Program-made: the position numbers and the translations under genes | The notes under the pieces: generated by a model | What the model was told of the DNA's origin: nothing | What the model saw: only the letters and a program-made list of their open reading frames with translations | Database searches by the model: none | Origin: Herbidospora sakaeratensis | GTDB taxonomy: Bacteria; Actinomycetota; Actinomycetes; Streptosporangiales; Streptosporangiaceae | DNA: 64,000 bases | Assembly (NCBI RefSeq): GCF_001570525.1 | Contig: NZ_BBXC01000013.1 | Span: 186,001-250,000 of the forward strand | Direction of reading: 5' to 3' | Shown here: one piece after another, positions 42,509 through 50,804 of the stretch | Position numbering within the stretch: the first letter of the stretch is position 1 | How the letters are laid out: each line of letters starts with the position of its first letter

Positions 42509-42535
42509 TTGTCGGTGCCGGGATCTATTGTCCCG
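42509..42535 (+). promoter_or_regulatory. Leaderless-type promoter element, copy 1
   Basis: The 27-base element starts TTGTCGGTG and ends GGGATCTATTGTCCCG. TATTGT fits the TANNNT -10 motif and ends 7 bases before the ATG at 42539, exactly where transcription starting at the A of ATG would be expected. No ribosome site precedes the ATG. A second copy with only two differences stands three bases before the SWIM gene at 46384. The ends CGGGA/TCCCG form an inverted repeat that could also bind a regulator. Confidence 0.65.
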
Positions 42536-42538
42536 ATC

Positions 42539-45500
42539 ATGACCTCAGCCACCCCCGCCGCCCTCTGGGCGGAGATCACCGACCTGGTCGTCCGCAACCA
42601 GGCCGCCACCCTGGCCGATCGCCTGGTCGCGCTCGGCGATGCGGAGCGCGCCGAGATCGGCGCGCGGTTGCCCGGCCTGGTGAAGGAGGTCCGCCGCCGC
42701 GTCGCCGAGCAGACCCCGGAACCGGCCGCGTGGGAGGTCGACGGCCTGCTCGACGATCGGGCCGGGGCGCTGGCGCTGGCGCTGGCCGGTGTCGGCTGCA
42801 TCGGCGGTTCGGCGGCCGCCGTGACGTGGCTGACCAGCCGCGACGTCAACCGCCGCTGGGCCGGCGACCTCGACGTCGCGGCGGTCGTGCGGGTGGCGGC
42901 GGCCCGGCCTGAGACGTGGCGGCTCGACGTGGCCGACCGGCTGGCCCGGCGCATCCGCCGTCCCGCCGACCGCATCGCCCCGCTGGCCATCGCGCTGCTC
43001 CGCCATTCGGGCGCGACGCCGCCCGACCACGACCCGCTGGTGGCCGCCTGGCTGACCGTGCCGAGTGTGGCCGGCGACCCCCTGACCCCCGTGTTGTTGC
43101 CGCGCGTCTTCGACGCCGACGGCGCGGGCCGGGCTCTCCGGGAGGAGAGGCTCGACCCGGAGCCGACCCGCTGGCTGGCGGCCGCCGCCCGCGACCTGCC
43201 GAGAGAGCGGGCGCTCGACGGGTGCGTGAGCCGGTTCCTGCGCGGCGGCGACGTCCAGGACCTGCGGTTCTTCGTCCGCCTGCACACGCTGCTCGACCCG
43301 ACGCCGCAGGAGGCGGCGGCGCGGTCGCGCGACTACCTGCGGCTGCTGCCCTCGGCCCCGGGCCCGGTCGCCGAGCTGGCCGCCGCGCAGGTGCGCAAGG
43401 CGCTGCCGCTCGACCACGCCGACCTGGTGGAGGCGGTCGAGGCGCTGACCTTCCGCGCCGAGGCGAAGCTGGCGGCGGTGGGGCTGCGCTGGCTCGACCA
43501 GTGCGTGAAGTCCGCCGGCGAGAGCGCCGGTGACCTGCTGCCCGCGCTGACGACCGCCTACGCGCACACGTCGTTCGACGTGCGCAACCGCGCCGCCGAC
43601 CTGACCCTCAAGCACGCCGGGGCGTTCGCCCCGCACGCCGGGGCGATCCTCGACGCGCTGCCCCACCTGGGCGCCGAGCTGGGCGCCAAGCTCGCGGCGC
43701 GGTTCAGCGGAACGGCCCCGGCCGAGGATCGCGCCGAGCGCAGGGAGTTCCCGCCGCTGCCCGACATACCGGAAGTGGGGCGTTTTCCCGAGCCGTCGTT
43801 GTCGCCCGACGACGAGGCGGGCTGGGTGGCCGGGGAACGCTGGCTGGCGGCGTTCGTGGCGGCCGTCGCCGGCGACCGGGAGAAGGCGCGGCGCGACGTG
43901 AAGCCCTGGCACGACCAGGCGCCCCACTGGTGGCGGTCGACCGAGGCGCGGACCGACCTCGGCGAGTGGCGGTTCGCGCTGGCCGACGAGCTGGCCGAGC
44001 CGGGCCCCGGCGGGCCGCCCGACCTGCCGCCGCGCGAACCGAAGACCGTGTGGATCCCGTGCGCCTCGTCCCACGTGGTCCGCCGGGTCACCCGGGGTGA
44101 GGCGGCGCCCGAGGTGAGCATGCCGGTCCCGGCGCGTTCGGCCCGGCGGCCCGACTACGTCTTCGCCGACGAGGTGACCCCCCGCACGGTCGTCATCACC
44201 TGGACCACCGACGAGGGCCCGGCCGGGGCCCTCGCCACCGAAGAGGGGCGGCCGCTGCCCGTCGTCGACGGCACGGTCAGGGTGGACGCCGGGAAGCACG
44301 TCCTGGACGGCCTCGACGCCATCGCCGCCGAGCTCCTGGAGCTCGGCGTGGACCCCCGCCGGGCCGAGGCCATGCGGCGGTCGCGGCCGGTGCCGCCGCC
44401 GGGCCCCGGTGAGCCGTGCGTCGCCGTGACGATGTTCCACACGCTGGGCCACCGGCGGGTCCTGGAGCCCGAGCCGCTGTCGCCGTTCGAGGAGTGGCGG
44501 CGGCGCCACCGCATGCCCTACCCGGGGGCCGTGGCGCCGCCGCACGAGTTCCTCATCCACCGCCATCTGGAGCTGCTGACCGCGCTCCGGGACGACGCGC
44601 TGCCGCCCGTCCTGCTGGCCACGCCCACCTGGCTCGACGGCCACCTCGACCCCGGCGTCCTGGTCACCCGGCTGGAGACCTGCGCGGCCGCCGGAGTGGA
44701 ACCGCTGCCCGCCGACCTGGCCCAGGCCCTGATGCGGCTGCCCCGGGGCGGCCACCCCGCCGCCGCCGCGCGCGCCGCGGCCCTCGGCTCCGACGCCGCC
44801 CGCTCGGTCGCGCGCTGGCTGGCGCGAGGCGGCCTGCCCGACCCGCGGACCGGCGTCACCTGGGAACACCGCTCCGACCGCAAGTGGGTCGAGCTCGGCG
44901 ACGACGAGCCGGCCGGCTTCACCACGGCCCGGATCGTCCCGGTCCTCACCGCACCGCCCACCGGCCACCCGCTGATCGACGAGATGCTGCTGAAGCCGCG
45001 TGACGGCGCCTTCTCCGCGGACTCGGCCGGGTGGTGGTCGGCGATGATGCCCGCCCACCGCGAGGTCGTGTCCGTCCACCTCCTGCCCGCGCTGCTGCGC
45101 GGCCGGTGGCTGCGCTGGACGCAGGTCGCCGAACTGCCGGGGCTGGCCATGGCCGACGGGCCGCTGGGCGAGGCCACCGCCGTGCTGGCCGCCGTGATGC
45201 TGGCCGACGGCACCTCCGACGTGATCGCGACGGCGCTGCGGCTGGCCGCGAAGGGAGAGCTGCCCGCCGAGTCGATCGGACGGCAGATGGCCCTGGCGAT
45301 CCGCCGCACGTCCTGGCTGGAGATCCGCCCCGCCATCGCCGCGCTCACCGACCTGGCCGAGCGGGGCGGGCACCACGAGGTGTGGCGCATGCTGCGCGTC
45401 CTGCTGCCCGCGCTGCTGCCCCGCGCGGGCGAGCGTGTCACCGTCAGCCACGCCGACCTCGTCGCCTTCGCGGCCGACGTCGCCGGGTGGACCGGCGCGC

Positions 45501-45595
45501 GGGGGGAGATCCCGCAGATCGCCGAGTACGCCAACAGCGGCCGCACCACCCGGTTCGCCCACGAGTGCCGTCGGCTGCACGCCCAGCTGACCTGA
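42539..45595 (+). CDS. DUF6493-like ~1,000-residue protein, paralogue 1
   Basis: This 1,018-residue protein is rich in alpha-helical, HEAT-like segments ([20 protein letters not shown], then [38 protein letters not shown]). There are no transmembrane helices or catalytic motifs I can name. The C-terminal block ([20 protein letters not shown], then FAHECRRLHAQLT) is shared with the paralogue at 47706. The arrangement beside a SWIM zinc-finger gene matches the actinobacterial DUF6493/SWIM gene pairs I know of, whose function is unreported. No Shine-Dalgarno precedes the ATG, so leaderless initiation is likely. It may be a scaffold of a larger complex with the SWIM and AAA proteins. Confidence 0.85.
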   Translation: MTSATPAALWAEITDLVVRNQAATLADRLVALGDAERAEIGARLPGLVKEVRRRVAEQTPEPAAWEVDGLLDDRAGALALALAGVGCIGGSAAAVTWLTSRDVNRRWAGDLDVAAVVRVAAARPETWRLDVADRLARRIRRPADRIAPLAIALLRHSGATPPDHDPLVAAWLTVPSVAGDPLTPVLLPRVFDADGAGRALREERLDPEPTRWLAAAARDLPRERALDGCVSRFLRGGDVQDLRFFVRLHTLLDPTPQEAAARSRDYLRLLPSAPGPVAELAAAQVRKALPLDHADLVEAVEALTFRAEAKLAAVGLRWLDQCVKSAGESAGDLLPALTTAYAHTSFDVRNRAADLTLKHAGAFAPHAGAILDALPHLGAELGAKLAARFSGTAPAEDRAERREFPPLPDIPEVGRFPEPSLSPDDEAGWVAGERWLAAFVAAVAGDREKARRDVKPWHDQAPHWWRSTEARTDLGEWRFALADELAEPGPGGPPDLPPREPKTVWIPCASSHVVRRVTRGEAAPEVSMPVPARSARRPDYVFADEVTPRTVVITWTTDEGPAGALATEEGRPLPVVDGTVRVDAGKHVLDGLDAIAAELLELGVDPRRAEAMRRSRPVPPPGPGEPCVAVTMFHTLGHRRVLEPEPLSPFEEWRRRHRMPYPGAVAPPHEFLIHRHLELLTALRDDALPPVLLATPTWLDGHLDPGVLVTRLETCAAAGVEPLPADLAQALMRLPRGGHPAAAARAAALGSDAARSVARWLARGGLPDPRTGVTWEHRSDRKWVELGDDEPAGFTTARIVPVLTAPPTGHPLIDEMLLKPRDGAFSADSAGWWSAMMPAHREVVSVHLLPALLRGRWLRWTQVAELPGLAMADGPLGEATAVLAAVMLADGTSDVIATALRLAAKGELPAESIGRQMALAIRRTSWLEIRPAIAALTDLAERGGHHEVWRMLRVLLPALLPRAGERVTVSHADLVAFAADVAGWTGARGEIPQIAEYANSGRTTRFAHECRRLHAQLT

Positions 45596-45601
45596 GCCGG
45601 G

Positions 45602-46339
45602 TCAGGGGTCGTCGTCGACGATGTGGCGCATGTAGAGGTCGGGGCGGGCCAGGAATCGGCGCCAGTCGTCGACCAGCGGTAGTTTCGCCCACTCGCCGGT
45701 CCGCGCCCCGTGGTCGCCCAGTTCGACGATCTGGGCGCCGGGCAGGGCGGTCAGGATCGGTGAGTGGGTGGCGCAGACGACCTGGCCGCCCTCGCCCGCC
45801 ACGCGGTGCATCAGCCCGGCCAGGCGCAGGCAGGATTGGAAGGAGAGGGCGGCCTCGGGTTCGTCCAGGAGATAGAGCCCGGGGCCGTCGAGCATGTAGT
45901 CGAGGACGGTGACGAAGCCCTCGCCGTGCGACTGGGTGGTGAGGTCGTCCGCCCAGAAGCCCTTTCCCTCTTTGGTGAGGACGCCGCGGGCGAGGTTGAC
46001 GAGCGTTTCGGCGCGGAAGAAGAACGCGCGCCGTTTCAGGCGGGGGCCGTGCAGGAGGCGTCCGCCGGTGACGGTGAGGTCGGCGTCGAGGACCTCGCCG
46101 AGCGGGGTGGCGGGGCCGGTGCCGGCGTATTTCGTGCCGGCCTTGCCGCCTTCGGCGTTGATGCCGCCGACGTCCGCGATCGCCTCCATGAGGGTGGACT
46201 TGCCCGATCCGTTGTCGCCGACGAGGAACGTCACGGGGGCGGTCAGCGGCACGCCCCGCTCGGCGAGGTGGCGGACCACGGGCAGGGCGGCGCACCAGCC
46301 GTCGGGGAGTCGCCGGGCGCTCAATCGGGTGATCAGCAC
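45602..46339 (-). CDS. AAA/ABC-type ATPase (OLD/RecF-like core)
   Basis: This 245-residue ATPase has Walker A VGDNGSGKST near residue 40, a signature-like TQSHGEGF, Walker B LYLLDEPEAALS, and a conserved histidine in CATHSPILTALPGA. This is the compact AAA_15/AAA_23 ABC-like type used alone in several conflict systems and housekeeping roles. No nuclease domain is attached. It lies between the two DUF6493-like genes but on the opposite strand: it converges on paralogue 1 with six bases between stops, and its GTG start is divergent from the SWIM gene (44 bases). It may supply ATP-dependent remodelling to that locus or be an unrelated insert. Confidence 0.9.
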   Translation of the reverse strand: MLITRLSARRLPDGWCAALPVVRHLAERGVPLTAPVTFLVGDNGSGKSTLMEAIADVGGINAEGGKAGTKYAGTGPATPLGEVLDADLTVTGGRLLHGPRLKRRAFFFRAETLVNLARGVLTKEGKGFWADDLTTQSHGEGFVTVLDYMLDGPGLYLLDEPEAALSFQSCLRLAGLMHRVAGEGGQVVCATHSPILTALPGAQIVELGDHGARTGEWAKLPLVDDWRRFLARPDLYMRHIVDDDP

Positions 46340-46353
46340 GGGAGGTCTCTCGT

Positions 46354-46380
46354 TTGTCGGTGGGGGGATCTATTGTCCCG
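46354..46380 (+). promoter_or_regulatory. Leaderless-type promoter element, copy 2
   Basis: This is identical to copy 1 at 42509-42535 except for two bases (GG for CC in the middle). TATTGT lies 7 bases before the ATG at 46384, so transcription and translation could start at the same A. It lies in the 44-base gap between the divergent AAA ATPase and SWIM genes. The shared element suggests the same regulator or sigma factor for both operons of this locus. Confidence 0.65.
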
Positions 46381-46383
46381 GCC

Positions 46384-47709
46384 ATGACTTCTGCGACGCA
46401 GGCGTACACGTACGCCGCGCCCTCCTCTCTTGTCGACGGCCGGCTCGGGTTGGCGACCTCCGGCGGCCGGGCCCTGACCGGCCCGGCCGTGGCGCCGCGG
46501 TTCTTCAGCGGCGTGGTGACCCAGGCGGCGCCCGCCGCGGCGGCGCTGCTCGGGGTGGCCGACGTGGCGCTGGCGCGCTACCACCAGCCGCAGGCGCGCA
46601 GCTGGGTGCGCGACCCGGTGGTGACGTGCAACGGCGACCGGTTGCGGTTCGAGTCGTTCTCGGCCTGCGGCGGGGTCTACTCGCGGCTCGACCTGCTGGG
46701 CGGCGCGCTCGACGGCGAGGTGTTCGACCGGGGGACCACCAACGTCGACGTGAACGCGCCGCTGCGGGAGGCGCTGGCGCGCGTCGGCGCGCGTGATCCG
46801 CTGCACCTGGGGGTCGGGCTCGACGAGCTGGTCGTGACGACGATGGACGGCGCGGTGGTGGAGAAGAAGGTGCCGCTGCCCGAACGCTGGTTGCGCGGCT
46901 TCGCCGAGGTGCAGGTCATCGCCTCGCGCATGGACCAGCGCGGCGAGCTGGCGGGCCTGGCGGCGGTGCGGTTCCTGCGCGGGCTGCCGAAGAAGGGCAT
47001 GGTGTGGGTGACCCCGTCGGGGCGTGACCTGAAGGTCTGCGACCGCGAGGTCGCCGGTTCGGTGCGGCTGGCCGCTCCGAACCGGCTCGGCACCCTCCTG
47101 CCGCTCCTGCGCTTCGCGAAGAGCCTTCGGGTGTACGGCCCCGCCGACGCCGCCTCCAGCGCCTGGGAGCTGGAGCTGCCCGGGATGCGCTACACGCTCG
47201 TGTTGTCGCCCGAACGCTGGCGCGGCTTCTCCGGCGAAGGCGCGGTCCTCGACGACCTGGCGACCGACGAGGCCGAGAACGACGCCGACGTGGTGGGCAT
47301 GCTGCTCAACTTCGAGCCCGAGGTCGAGATCGGGCTGCTGGCCGACCGCGCGGGCCTGCCCGCCGACCGGGTGCGGGCCGCGCTGACCCAGCTCGGCGTC
47401 GCCGGGCGGGTCGGCTACGACCTGGCCGAGGCCGCCCACTTCCACCGCGAGCTGCCCTACGACAAGGACAACGTGCTCCTGCTCAACCCGCGTCTGGCCA
47501 AGGCGCGCACGCTGGTCGAGGCGGGCGCCGTGCGGCTCGAGGGCGAGCTGGCCACCGTCACCACCTCGGGCGGGGCCCGGCGCGTCTCGCTGACCGACGG
47601 CTCCTGCACCTGCGAGTGGTGGTGGGACCATCGCGGCTCCCGCGGCCCGTGCAAGCACGTGCTCGCCGCCCGCATCGCCGTCCGCGCCGCCGTGGAGGTC
47701 TCCCGGTGA
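46384..47709 (+). CDS. SWIM zinc-finger protein
   Basis: This 441-residue protein ends in a SWIM zinc finger: CTC (C408, C410) and CKH (C423, H425), CxCx12CxH, in SCTCEWWWDHRGSRGPCKHV. SWIM domains bind DNA or mediate protein contacts and occur in conflict-type and chaperone systems. The first ~390 residues have no recognised catalytic domain but contain a winged-helix-like GLLADRAGLPADRVRAALTQ. The stop overlaps the GTG start of paralogue 2, so the SWIM protein and paralogue 2 are co-translated. The start is set by the leaderless promoter element, with no Shine-Dalgarno. Confidence 0.9.
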   Translation: MTSATQAYTYAAPSSLVDGRLGLATSGGRALTGPAVAPRFFSGVVTQAAPAAAALLGVADVALARYHQPQARSWVRDPVVTCNGDRLRFESFSACGGVYSRLDLLGGALDGEVFDRGTTNVDVNAPLREALARVGARDPLHLGVGLDELVVTTMDGAVVEKKVPLPERWLRGFAEVQVIASRMDQRGELAGLAAVRFLRGLPKKGMVWVTPSGRDLKVCDREVAGSVRLAAPNRLGTLLPLLRFAKSLRVYGPADAASSAWELELPGMRYTLVLSPERWRGFSGEGAVLDDLATDEAENDADVVGMLLNFEPEVEIGLLADRAGLPADRVRAALTQLGVAGRVGYDLAEAAHFHRELPYDKDNVLLLNPRLAKARTLVEAGAVRLEGELATVTTSGGARRVSLTDGSCTCEWWWDHRGSRGPCKHVLAARIAVRAAVEVSR

Positions 47710-50700
47710 GCCTGCTGGACGAGATCGCGCAGCTGCTCACCGGCCCGTCGATCACCCGGCTGGCCGACCGGCTGGTCACGCTCACCGAGCACGAGCGCGC
47801 CGAGCTGGCCGGGCCCCTGCCCGATCTGGTCAGGAGCGTGCGCGACCCGGACGAGCCGCCCGACCCCACCCTGGTGCTGCTGACCGCGGCGGGCGTCGTC
47901 ACCGGCCCGGCCGCCGCCGTGACGTACATGACCGGCCGCGACGTCACCCGCCGCTGGGCCGCCCCCATCGACGTCGCCCTGGTGTGCCGGGTGGCGGCCA
48001 CCCGGCCACCGCAGTGGCGGAGCGACGTCGCCGTCCGGCTGGCCCGGCGGATCCGGCGGCCCGGCGACCGCATCGCGCCGCTGGCCGTGGCGCTGCTGCG
48101 CGAGTCCGGCGCGACACCGCCCGACCACGACCCGCTGGTCGCCGCCTGGCTCACCGACCCGGGCGTGGACGGCGACCCGCTGACCCCCGTGCTGCTGCCG
48201 CGCGTCTTCGACGCCGACGGCGCCGGCCGCGCCCTCCGGGGGGAGAGGCTGGCGCCCGAGCCGACCCACTGGCTGGCCACGGCCGTCCGCGAGCTGCCCC
48301 GAGAACGGGCGCTCGACGGGTGCGTCAGCCGGTTCCTGCGCGGCGGCGACGCGCACGACCTGCGGTTCTTCGTCCGCCTCCACACCCTGCTCGACCCGAC
48401 GCCGCAGGAGGCGGCAGCGCGGTCGCGCGACTACCTGCGGCTGCTGCCCTCGGCCCCGGGCCCGGTCGCCGAGCTGGCCGCCGCGCAGGTGCGCAAAGCG
48501 CTGCCGCTCGACCACGCCGACCTGGTGGAGGCGGTCGAGGCGCTGACCTTCCGCGCCGAGGCCAAGCTGGCGGCGGTGGGGCTGCGCTGGACCGACCAGA
48601 CGATCCGGGCCGCCCCGGAGCGCGCGGGCGATTTCGTCACCGCGCTGACCGTGGCGTACACCCACGGCTCCTTCGACGTGCGCAACCGCGCGGCCGAGCT
48701 GACTTTGAAGCACGCCGGCCTGTTCGCGGGTCACGCCGAGGCGTTCCTGGCGGCGATCCCCGCACTGCCCGCCGAGCTCGGCTCCGTGCTGGCGAAGCGG
48801 TTCGGCGGGGAGATCCCGGCCGGGGAGGTCGCGGAACACAGGGAGTTCCCGCCGCTCCCGCAGCCGGCGGAGGCGCAACCGTTCCCCGAGCCGTCGATCA
48901 CGTCCTCCGGCCTCGACGAGTGGGTCCGCTGGGAGTGCTGGCCGGCCGCCTTCGTCGCCGGGATCCACGCCGACCGGGCGGAACTGCGCCGCGTGCTCAC
49001 GCCCTACGTCCAGCAGCGATCGGGCTACCTGCAGGTCGGCGACCAGCGCACCGACCTCGACGCGTGGCAGGCGACGCTGGCCGCCGAGCTGGTCTCACCC
49101 GGGAGCGTGCCGGTGGCGCCGCCGCTCGGGCCGCAGCGGTACTGGGAGGGCGAGAGCCACTCGACGCAGGTGCTCGCCGTGACGCGGGGTGCGCGGATCG
49201 CCGCGCCGAGACGGGTGGTCCGGGGCGTCAGCATCAGCTTCGGCGGCCCGGAGCGGGGCCGTTTCCTCGACGACGACGCCCCCGTGCGCTCCATCTCCGT
49301 CACGTGGACGAGCGACGAGGGCCCGTCCACGGCCGAGGCCCGGGAGAACGGCGAGCAGATTCCCTGCGCGAACGGCTGGGTGTCCCTCAACGGAGAACCG
49401 GTCGTCGGTGTCCCCGAGCCGACGTGGCACCGTTTCGACCACGAAGAAGACCACGAAGAAGACCACGGAGAAGACCACGGAGAAGAGCAGGACGAGGGCC
49501 CCGCCGCCGGGGAGGCGATGCCTGACCACGTCCTCGACGGCGTCTACCACCGCATGGCGGAACTCGGTGTCCACCCCGCCCGGATCGAGGCGATGCGCGC
49601 GGGCGGCCCGGTGCCCCCGCCCGGCGACGACGAGCCGTGCGTGGCGGTGACGGTGACCTACTTCCCGGCCCGGCGGCGCTCCTTCCAGCCCGACCCGCTG
49701 CCCGACGCCGAGGAATGGCGGCGGCAGCACCTGCTTCCCCATCCGACCATGCTCTCCCCGCTCCACGACTTCCTGCTGCACCGCTACGCCGAGATCCTCG
49801 ACGCCCTGCGCGCCGGCACGCTGCCGCCCGTGCTGCTGGCCACCCCGACCTCGCTGCGCGGCCACCTCGACCCCGCCGTGCTGGTCGACCGCCTGGAGAG
49901 CTGCGCCGCCGCGGGCCGCGAGCCGCTGGAAGCCGACCTGGCCCAAGCGCTGCTCCGGCTCCCGAGGGGCAGCCACCCGGCCGAGGCCGCCCGCGCCGCC
50001 GCGATCGGCTCGGCCGCCGCCCGGCAGGCCGCCGCCTGGCTGGCCGGGGAGGGCCTGCCCGACCCGGAGTGCGGCGCCGCCCGGCCGAAAGGGGCCGAAG
50101 GCGGCGAAGGCCGGCTGACGCCCGTGCTCCGGGCCGCGCCCACCGGCGTCCGGCTCATCGACGACGTGGCGCTGCGGGAGCCGTTCTCGTGGACCGACTA
50201 CGACAAGGGCGGGGCGATGGCCGCCTGGCCTGCCATGCTGCCGTCCCACCGGGAGGTCGTGGCGGTCAACTTCCTGCCCTTCACCTTCCGCACCTACTGG
50301 AGCGGCAACGTGCGCCAGCCGGAGGTCTCCCGGATGGTCGCCGCCGACGGCCCCCTGGGCGACGCGACGGCGCTGATCCTCGCCTACCTGCTCGGCGCGG
50401 AGCCGTCCCCGACGATCCCGCTGGTGCTGCGCATGGCCGCGCGCGGCGACCTGCCCGCCGAGACGATGGGAGCGCAGCTCGCGCTGATGATCCGCGGCAC
50501 CCCGCTGGAGACCCGGCCCGTCATCGGGGCCCTGACCGCCCTGGCCGAGGCGGGCGGCCACCACGAGGTGTGGCGCATGCTGCGGGCGATGCTGCCCGAC
50601 CTGCTCGGCGAAGGCCGCTGCATCACCGCCCCGCTGGCCGAACTGGTGGCCTTCGCCACCGAGGTCGCCCGATGGACCGGTGCGCGCGGGGAGATCCCGG

Positions 50701-50804
50701 TCGTCGCCGCGTACGCCAGGAGCCGGCGGACGATCCGCTTCGTCCACGAATGCGGGCGCCTCCACGCCCAGCTCACCGAGGGCCGGGAAAGCCCACCTTC
50801 GTAA
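47706..50804 (+). CDS. DUF6493-like ~1,000-residue protein, paralogue 2
   Basis: This 1,032-residue paralogue of the gene at 42539 has the same architecture and C-terminal signature ([20 protein letters not shown], then [15 protein letters not shown]). The GTG start at 47706 overlaps the SWIM stop (GTGA). A block of 76 residues ([20 protein letters not shown] to LAAVGLRW) is identical to paralogue 1, and the 204 bases encoding most of it differ at only three positions, unlike the rest. A low-complexity charged run ([19 protein letters not shown]) near residue 580 is encoded by a 12-bp repeat. The function is unknown. Its 3' end overlaps the convergent SDR gene by 32 bases. Confidence 0.85.
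49437..49484 (+). repeat. 12-bp tandem repeat in paralogue 2
   Basis: Four in-frame copies of GACCACGAAGAA or GACCACGGAGAA encode a DHEE/DHGE acidic-histidine run. Paralogue 1 has no counterpart at this site. The histidine-rich acidic stretch might bind metal or simply be a flexible insertion. Slippage could vary its length without frameshift. Confidence 0.9.

Follow-up and report, generated by a model that had tools for sequence, protein, structure and literature searches.

A two-gene unit, consisting of a SWIM zinc finger gene and a gene for a DUF6493-type solenoid protein, was found in a 64,000-nucleotide stretch of the 8.6-Mb genome of Herbidospora sakaeratensis (contig NZ_BBXC01000013.1, here C13, positions 186001 to 250000; termed the window and numbered from its first letter). 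This unit is read here, with a probability of about 0.62, as a DNA-damage-induced relative, free of reverse transcriptase (RT), of the accessory pair of type XIII retrons, in which a conserved SWIM protein would act with fast-evolving solenoid partners under the control of PafBC. As judged from the sequence, the core unit is the SWIM gene together with the DUF gene that follows it, DUF-b (46354-50804), and an extra DUF6493-type paralogue, DUF-a, is present under its own copy of the promoter (42509-45595). The order and strands of the genes at this locus (DUF-a, +; an AAA_21 ATPase gene, −; SWIM, +; DUF-b, +) and the GTGA overlap of the SWIM gene with DUF-b at 47706-47709 had been correctly described in a first-pass annotation of this DNA, which took all four genes to be one system. 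The SWIM gene and the helical DUF6493-type gene, which co-occur and have a common promoter, withstood analysis as a unit; the ATPase did not, and hence there is no four-gene system.

Conservation of the SWIM-DUF pair

A search for DUF6493/SWIM pairs across genomes, as suggested by the first-pass annotation, detected strong co-occurrence. Among 100 genomes of the family, SWIM homologues were detected in 41 and DUF homologues in 38 (among the candidates scored and listed), with both present in 37, DUF only in 1 (G012), SWIM only in 4 (G050, G068, G072 and G077, with fragments only in G068 and G077) and neither in 58 (Fisher P = 1e-21); both or neither were thus found in 95 of the 100 genomes. 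Several of the 41 SWIM-positive genomes contained only broken or partial SWIM genes. In a survey of 396 genomes of the phylum, SWIM was present in 8 and DUF7824 in 7, all 7 of which were also SWIM positive. In longer stretches of the seven other SWIM-bearing genomes of the phylum, every SWIM locus was accompanied by a gene of the DUF family; that of G303 had been missed by the Pfam model. These surveys were single searches in which part of the candidates was scored (e.g., 7, 27 or 4 per genome); absences in other genomes, including that of the ATPase gene from the vicinity of DUF genes, refer to the matches scored and listed, and the absence of DUF from some genomes may be due to missed homology.

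A set of named loci, comprising the best 80 of 534 relatives and derived entirely from close actinomycetes, was analyzed gene by gene, and the closest SWIM relatives in this set were those of Herbidospora species (96%). A full DUF gene was present in cis in 47 loci, a short one in 5 and none in 22, and in 6 loci SWIM was at a contig edge, such that a cis DUF gene was detected in 52 of the 74 loci not ending at SWIM. The SWIM and DUF genes overlapped by 4 bases in 40 of the 52 cis pairs, and a second DUF gene was present in 10 of the 80 loci. SWIM-DUF6493 pairs with 4-bp overlaps were also observed on large plasmids of Diaphorobacter and Asticcacaulis. The identities of SWIM proteins and of their cis DUF partners were highly correlated (0.95; 1,081 pairs, 47 loci), and it was always the DUF protein that had diverged more, by 2.3 to 4.2 times. 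Genes in these loci were called with a simple script, which produced some wrong starts (e.g., a SWIM start placed 105 nucleotides [nt] late in several loci) and missed the SWIM gene of one locus (L242). These results indicated that the SWIM gene and the DUF6493-type gene are a conserved, co-inherited pair.

DNA-damage promoters of the SWIM and DUF genes

The conserved block located 5′ of the SWIM genes equals the published RecA-NDp consensus, tTGTCRgtg-8nt-TannnT (PMC5656591), a motif also reported for the sites bound by PafBC in vivo (PMC6789036; PMC8223512). In the window, this 23-base pattern was matched twice, as compared with no matches in 100 shuffles. The first-pass annotation had noticed an element common to the SWIM gene and DUF-a but had not recognized it as a known DNA-damage promoter, and the TTG that it assigned as the start of DUF-a (42509) is the first base of this promoter. 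The probable start codons are ATG 42539 for DUF-a and ATG 46384 for SWIM, each situated 30 nt from the first promoter base. By this match, a RecA-NDp promoter, of the PafBC-dependent, LexA-independent DNA-damage type of actinobacteria, stands at the head of both the DUF-a and the SWIM-DUF-b transcription unit.

For the 80 named SWIM genes, the best upstream match to the 12 positions of the pattern was perfect in 39 cases and had one mismatch in 36, two in 4 and three in 1. Two or fewer mismatches were, therefore, observed for 79 of 80 SWIM genes but for only 3 of the 925 other genes of these loci (one each with 0, 1 and 2 mismatches; another 11 had 3, making 14 with three or fewer). Shuffled SWIM upstream regions, in which base content only was preserved, reached 3 mismatches once and otherwise had at least 4. 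The distance from promoter to start was exactly 30 nt in 71 of the 80 genes, a spacing that puts the −10-like part 7 nt 5′ of the ATG, and hence the mRNA is probably leaderless. When a wider upstream stretch was searched, three or fewer mismatches were found for 33 of 39 family SWIM calls and for 28 of 512 other genes. Solitary DUF genes of other genomes (n = 20, hand-picked from the family DUF search) had two or fewer mismatches in 15 cases, as compared with none of 45 other genes. In another family, a perfect promoter was present at SWIM in four genomes, and a fifth genome had one mismatch.

The H. sakaeratensis genome contained 15 perfect RecA-NDp sites and no match to a reversed-pattern control. 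Five of these sites were at SWIM/DUF units (two in C13 and one each at C7:1375972, C24:7989 and C32:62861), and the remaining three of the eight units in this genome (L011, L009 and L218) had 1, 2 and 2 mismatches, respectively. Downstream of eight of the ten other perfect sites, Pfam searches detected UvrB, UvrA, SbcD, two DEAD-type helicases, a WYL regulator, an integrase-family protein and a TnpB-type protein; a small protein and an ABC-type protein were assigned by eye to the other two. The SWIM-DUF unit thus resembles the PafBC (RecA-NDp) regulon in having the exact consensus and a conserved 30-nt spacing, in a genome with sites at uvrA, uvrB and sbcD. SWIM genes were not reported as members of this regulon in the literature searched. 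An orphan gene with a RecA-NDp promoter has a precedent in Streptomyces, where the macrodomain gene SCO6735 is UV inducible (PMC5087735), although its protein is unrelated to those described here. HTH_PafC matches over the cut-off were obtained in 12 of 12 genomes (best for H. sakaeratensis, 7.3e-39), with a model that represents the PafC part only and is unspecific (matches in 5 of 14 control genomes). SOS-box patterns were absent from the vicinity of the SWIM start in proteobacterial and plasmid loci.

The perfect pattern was present in 15 of 16 genomes searched, at 4 to 40 copies each and with a reversed control of 0. RecA-NDp sites are, hence, numerous outside mycobacteria, where a Streptomyces study left open whether a PafBC response exists (PMC9380542). 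Four genomes of one genus in another family (G206, G227, G260 and G281) contained 29, 40, 28 and 34 perfect sites, respectively (reversed control, 0), and the R position of these sites was mostly A among the matches listed.

Relationship of the SWIM protein to type XIII retrons

The SWIM protein matched the Pfam SWIM model with 20.9 bits (cut-off, 19.6). A weak winged-helix match (DprA_WH) was detected at an E value of ≤0.01 in 10 of 14 SWIM proteins, with the window copy being below the model cut-off. The PADLOC model SWIM_XIII matched the window protein at 1.8e-48 and also matched 14 of 14 aligned SWIM proteins. A comparison was made with a locus on a plasmid of Methylobacterium bullatum (L246:3480-10412), which encodes a large protein of 1,048 amino acids (aa), a SWIM_XIII protein of 554 aa in the middle and an RT of 602 aa that matches RT_XIII at 6.6e-176 and also Pfam RVT_1. 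The two SWIM proteins were 28% identical over most of their length (E = 4e-27), and profile comparison with hhalign gave 99.57% over 352 columns. These matches indicate long-range homology between the SWIM protein of the window and that of type XIII retrons, the type XIII names being those of PADLOC models. The record of the M. bullatum locus, which itself resembles a type XIII retron, carries no gene annotation.

The two loci also share a 4-bp overlap between the large-protein gene and the SWIM gene. They differ in that the large gene lies 3′ of SWIM in the window and 5′ in M. bullatum, in that the window unit carries a PafBC-type promoter and in that no RT was found here. With the M. bullatum RT as the sole query, the best E value was 0.43 among 1,849 called proteins of other loci and 0.74 in the window. 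The unit was not filed as a retron because no adjoining RT_XIII reverse transcriptase was found. The 1,048-aa protein, which looks WGR/HEAT-like by eye, presumably corresponds to the ARM partner found in type XIII retrons; Pfam gave no match at 1e-5. DUF-b is a predicted solenoid, as would suit an ARM-type partner, but had neither sequence kinship to the M. bullatum large protein nor a PADLOC match.

No matches were obtained in PHROGs, SWIM (the only query used there) had no match in phages and no relative of the SWIM or DUF queries was detected in the viral_contigs set. Kinship to the yehL-yehM-yehP-yehQ cluster of Escherichia coli (MoxR, YehM, vWA and SWIM) was considered and rejected; one of its proteins is also annotated with SWIM zinc fingers, but no similarity of YehQ, YehM or YehI to the window proteins was detected in a low-power search with single-sequence templates. 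PG1037 of Porphyromonas, a SWIM protein encoded within a uvrA/pcrA operon (PMC3747172), was taken as an analogy only, and a search of a paper on conflict systems (PMC7159879) for SWIM and related terms found no mention of SWIM.

Diversification of the DUF6493-type proteins

DUF-b matched Pfam DUF7824 with 28.6 bits and DUF-a scored 22.8 bits, under the cut-off of 27.5. The first-pass annotation had described both proteins as DUF6493-like, and the DUF6493 model matched neither of them. Among 14 aligned relatives, DUF7824 was detected in 13, DUF7825 in 7 and DUF6493 in 5, and a relative from Asticcacaulis had strong matches to all three models together. As these relatives place DUF6493, DUF7824 and DUF7825 within one protein family, the name is a fair one, even if the window copies are too diverged for the DUF6493 model and have an extra strand-containing segment. 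This segment (approximately aa 477 to 662 of DUF-b) is absent from several relatives. Structure prediction for DUF-b produced a confident alpha-solenoid with a mean pLDDT of 88.7. Sequence searches for relatives of solved structure returned nothing meaningful, and no paper naming DUF6493 was found in the literature searched.

The H. sakaeratensis genome contains eight DUF genes as compared with two SWIM genes, and six of the eight DUF genes have no SWIM gene directly upstream; the possibility raised by the first-pass annotation that DUF6493 genes occur singly was thus partly borne out. SWIM genes usually number one or two per genome. At a locus recognized as the same by its common neighbors, Herbidospora daliensis has an intact SWIM gene (L145 and L088), G033 retains a short piece of it (L124) and H. 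sakaeratensis has none (L011), with the promoter and the DUF gene having been kept in L124 and L011 despite the reduction or loss of SWIM. The promoter and first codons of DUF-a resemble those of the SWIM gene (38 bp at 87%), and DUF-a looks like a SWIM-DUF unit that has lost its SWIM gene. DUF-a and DUF-b are 60% identical and have a common tract in which differences at 4-fold sites were reduced to 0.12 and 0.03 in two adjacent 50-codon bins, as compared with 0.21 to 0.67 in the other 18; this low level of synonymous change is consistent with gene conversion.

In 15 Nonomuraea loci, selected by the size and strand of both flanking genes, the median identity of SWIM was 0.85 and those of the flanking regulator genes were 0.82 and 0.75. 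The gene after SWIM was a DUF gene in 6 of these loci, and two of the 6 were truncated. At L010:5063-6964 (C7 of H. sakaeratensis), a DUF6493-type gene that is truncated at its N-terminal end carries a perfect RecA-NDp site of its own and adjoins genes that look biosynthetic by eye.

The neighboring ATPase

The ATPase matched Pfam AAA_21 with 57.6 bits (cut-off, 27). It adjoins SWIM in 3 of the 80 named loci (L125, L126 and L128), all from Herbidospora, in addition to the window, and is disrupted in L128, where matches occur in two frames and the middle is missing. In 47 family loci with 39 SWIM calls, the ATPase adjoined SWIM in the window only. Relatives of the ATPase were present in 23 of the 100 family genomes and were not associated with DUF (both, 11; DUF only, 27; ATPase only, 12; neither, 50; P = 0.33; candidates scored and listed). 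The ATPase was, therefore, rejected as a component of the unit; absence of the ATPase from most homologous loci is what the first-pass annotation had named as evidence against a single system. The first-pass annotation had also seen a resemblance to modular NTP-dependent conflict systems. A system of the MoxR/vWA type was not supported, as the ATPase is of the AAA_21 family and YehQ, YehM and YehI showed no relation in the low-power search; neither a MoxR ATPase nor a vWA protein was present among the 7 window proteins scanned with Pfam. Members of this ATPase family reach 72% identity across genera, and parts of the protein match several PADLOC ATPase models (mad3, AriA and GajA).

Possible functions of the unit

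The two-gene unit is probably an uncharacterized DNA-damage response unit. DNA damage would generate single-stranded DNA (ssDNA), which is reported to activate PafBC (PMC11804915); the promoter match is the basis for the steps from damage to transcription. PafBC would then switch on an mRNA starting at or next to the ATG, and coupled translation could yield the SWIM and solenoid proteins together, which may form a complex, as suggested by the overlap and the co-evolution of their genes. The types of domain present suggest that SWIM, with a winged helix and a zinc finger, would be the component that stays constant and binds nucleic acid, whereas the solenoid would vary and bind partners. PafBC would set the timing, whereas type XIII retrons place SWIM and a large partner with a reverse transcriptase.

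Several observations weigh against this reading. Control of the pair by DNA damage is not universal: 6 of the 39 family SWIM calls had more than 3 mismatches (some owing to wrong starts), 5 of the 20 orphan DUF genes had 3 to 5 mismatches, two of the seven other SWIM-bearing phylum genomes (G303 and G185) had nothing better than 3 mismatches in the flanks searched and no perfect site was present at three Streptomyces plasmid copies and three proteobacterial loci. One genome with a SWIM-DUF pair (G042) contained no perfect site at all and one match to the control pattern. ClgR has also been reported to recognize the RecA-NDp promoter (PMC5656591), and in a LexA study of Streptomyces venezuelae a first search suggested that the Mycobacterium smegmatis PafBC motif was not conserved there (PMC9380542). 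A cis DUF gene is lacking at 22 of the 80 named SWIM genes. The DUF6493 proteins and the M. bullatum 1,048-aa protein are unrelated by sequence (hhalign, 0.3%), the structure model of SWIM was too poor for use (pLDDT, 50.3) and Foldseek searches of PDB and viral structures with the solenoid model returned generic solenoids only, none at an E value of ≤0.001.

Most likely, the pair acts on damaged or foreign DNA, either as a repair or tolerance factor, which is slightly favored, or as a damage-triggered defense effector. As repair or tolerance accessories, SWIM-DUF complexes would assist in processing stalled forks or specific lesions, with different lesions, or genotoxic natural products of actinomycetes, being mirrored in the repertoire of DUF proteins. 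This role is preferred because of the company kept in the regulon, with its excision-repair and SbcD nuclease genes, and because of the conservation of SWIM, which matches that of the flanking regulators in the Nonomuraea loci; the biosynthetic-looking neighbors of the truncated DUF copy in L010 (by eye) would be in keeping with it. No known repair domain was found and the Foldseek solenoid matches were generic, and a repair or tolerance role is held at somewhat below even odds.

The kinship to retrons and the diversification of the DUF genes favor a role in defense, in which an anti-phage effector related to retron-XIII accessory proteins would be switched on by ssDNA arising from phage attack or DNA damage and would halt growth or attack phage DNA. 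The SWIM_XIII homology, the fast divergence, gene conversion, tandem copies and presence/absence of DUF genes, and the differing surroundings of the closest SWIM copies across genera (by eye) are all consistent with such a role. However, no recurrent defense family was found among the adjacent genes (108 of 144 adjacent proteins were scanned and no PADLOC family occurred in more than 2, in a comparison made without a background set), phages lacked SWIM matches and viral_contigs lacked both SWIM and DUF matches, the promoter is common to uvrA, uvrB and sbcD, and the role of retron-XIII accessory proteins in defense is itself putative. We consider defense to have about one chance in three.

A more speculative proposal, for which we would allow perhaps one chance in four, is that of a SWIM/solenoid effector of the retron-XIII type, free of both RT and multicopy single-stranded DNA (msDNA) and triggered by PafBC, the ssDNA sensor of the cell itself, in which one conserved SWIM adaptor would serve many fast-diversifying, PafBC-controlled DUF6493 solenoids as a damage- or phage-sensing repertoire. 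If true, such a repertoire of many solenoids with one adaptor would be unlike any described bacterial system. The DNA-damage-response reading would provide the DUF6493/DUF7824/DUF7825 proteins with a first testable function and would connect a family of retron accessory proteins with a DNA-damage regulon that is chromosomal and involves no RT, such that the activity of the retron-XIII SWIM protein could be studied apart from the RT.

It is improbable that the genes are a plain housekeeping pair (e.g., a chaperone scaffold) with an incidental promoter match; some copies do lack the promoter and induction is a prediction from sequence, but the near-restriction of good matches to SWIM genes in the named loci and the 15 genomic sites against none for the control argue otherwise. 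Least probable is a four-part NTP-dependent system including the ATPase, which adjoins SWIM in the window, L125, L126 and L128 but not in 77 of 80 named loci or 38 of 39 family SWIM calls, shows no genome-level association and is disrupted in L128.

Coordinates and other promoter-bearing genes

Table 1. Positions in the window of the genes, promoters and tracts of the locus
Feature	Position (strand)	Length	Remarks
RecA-NDp (PafBC-type DNA-damage) promoter of DUF-a	42509..42531 (+)		Perfect match to TTGTCRGTG-N8-TANNNT; none in 100 shuffles
DUF-a, DUF6493/DUF7824 family	42539..45595 (+)	1018 aa
Gene-conversion-like tract of DUF-a	43208..43507 (+)	aa 224-323	Near-identical to DUF-b 48306-48605
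AAA_21 ATPase	45602..46339 (−)	245 aa	Judged a lineage-specific bystander, outside the unit
RecA-NDp (PafBC-type) promoter of SWIM-DUF-b operon	46354..46376 (+)		Perfect match
SWIM protein	46384..47709 (+)	441 aa	N-terminal region conserved; segment resembling a winged helix (weak DprA_WH match); SWIM zinc finger at the C terminus
SWIM zinc finger	47584..47670 (+)		C408, C410, C423 and H425 invariant across 14 aligned proteins
GTGA overlap, SWIM stop/DUF-b start	47706..47709 (+)		Putative translational coupling
DUF-b, DUF6493/DUF7824 family	47706..50804 (+)	1032 aa	Predicted alpha-solenoid
Gene-conversion-like tract of DUF-b	48306..48605 (+)		Counterpart of 43208-43507

RecA-NDp-like sites near the start were also observed for TnpB-type (IS605 OrfB) genes. 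The sites were perfect in L225 (C11:535204 of H. sakaeratensis) and in L160:1-330 (gene identified by eye), had one mismatch in L151:4261-5352 and had two in a relative in L167. Two of the three best-scoring non-SWIM genes among the 925 begin like TnpB (by eye). These matches suggest that some TnpB genes may be DNA-damage inducible.

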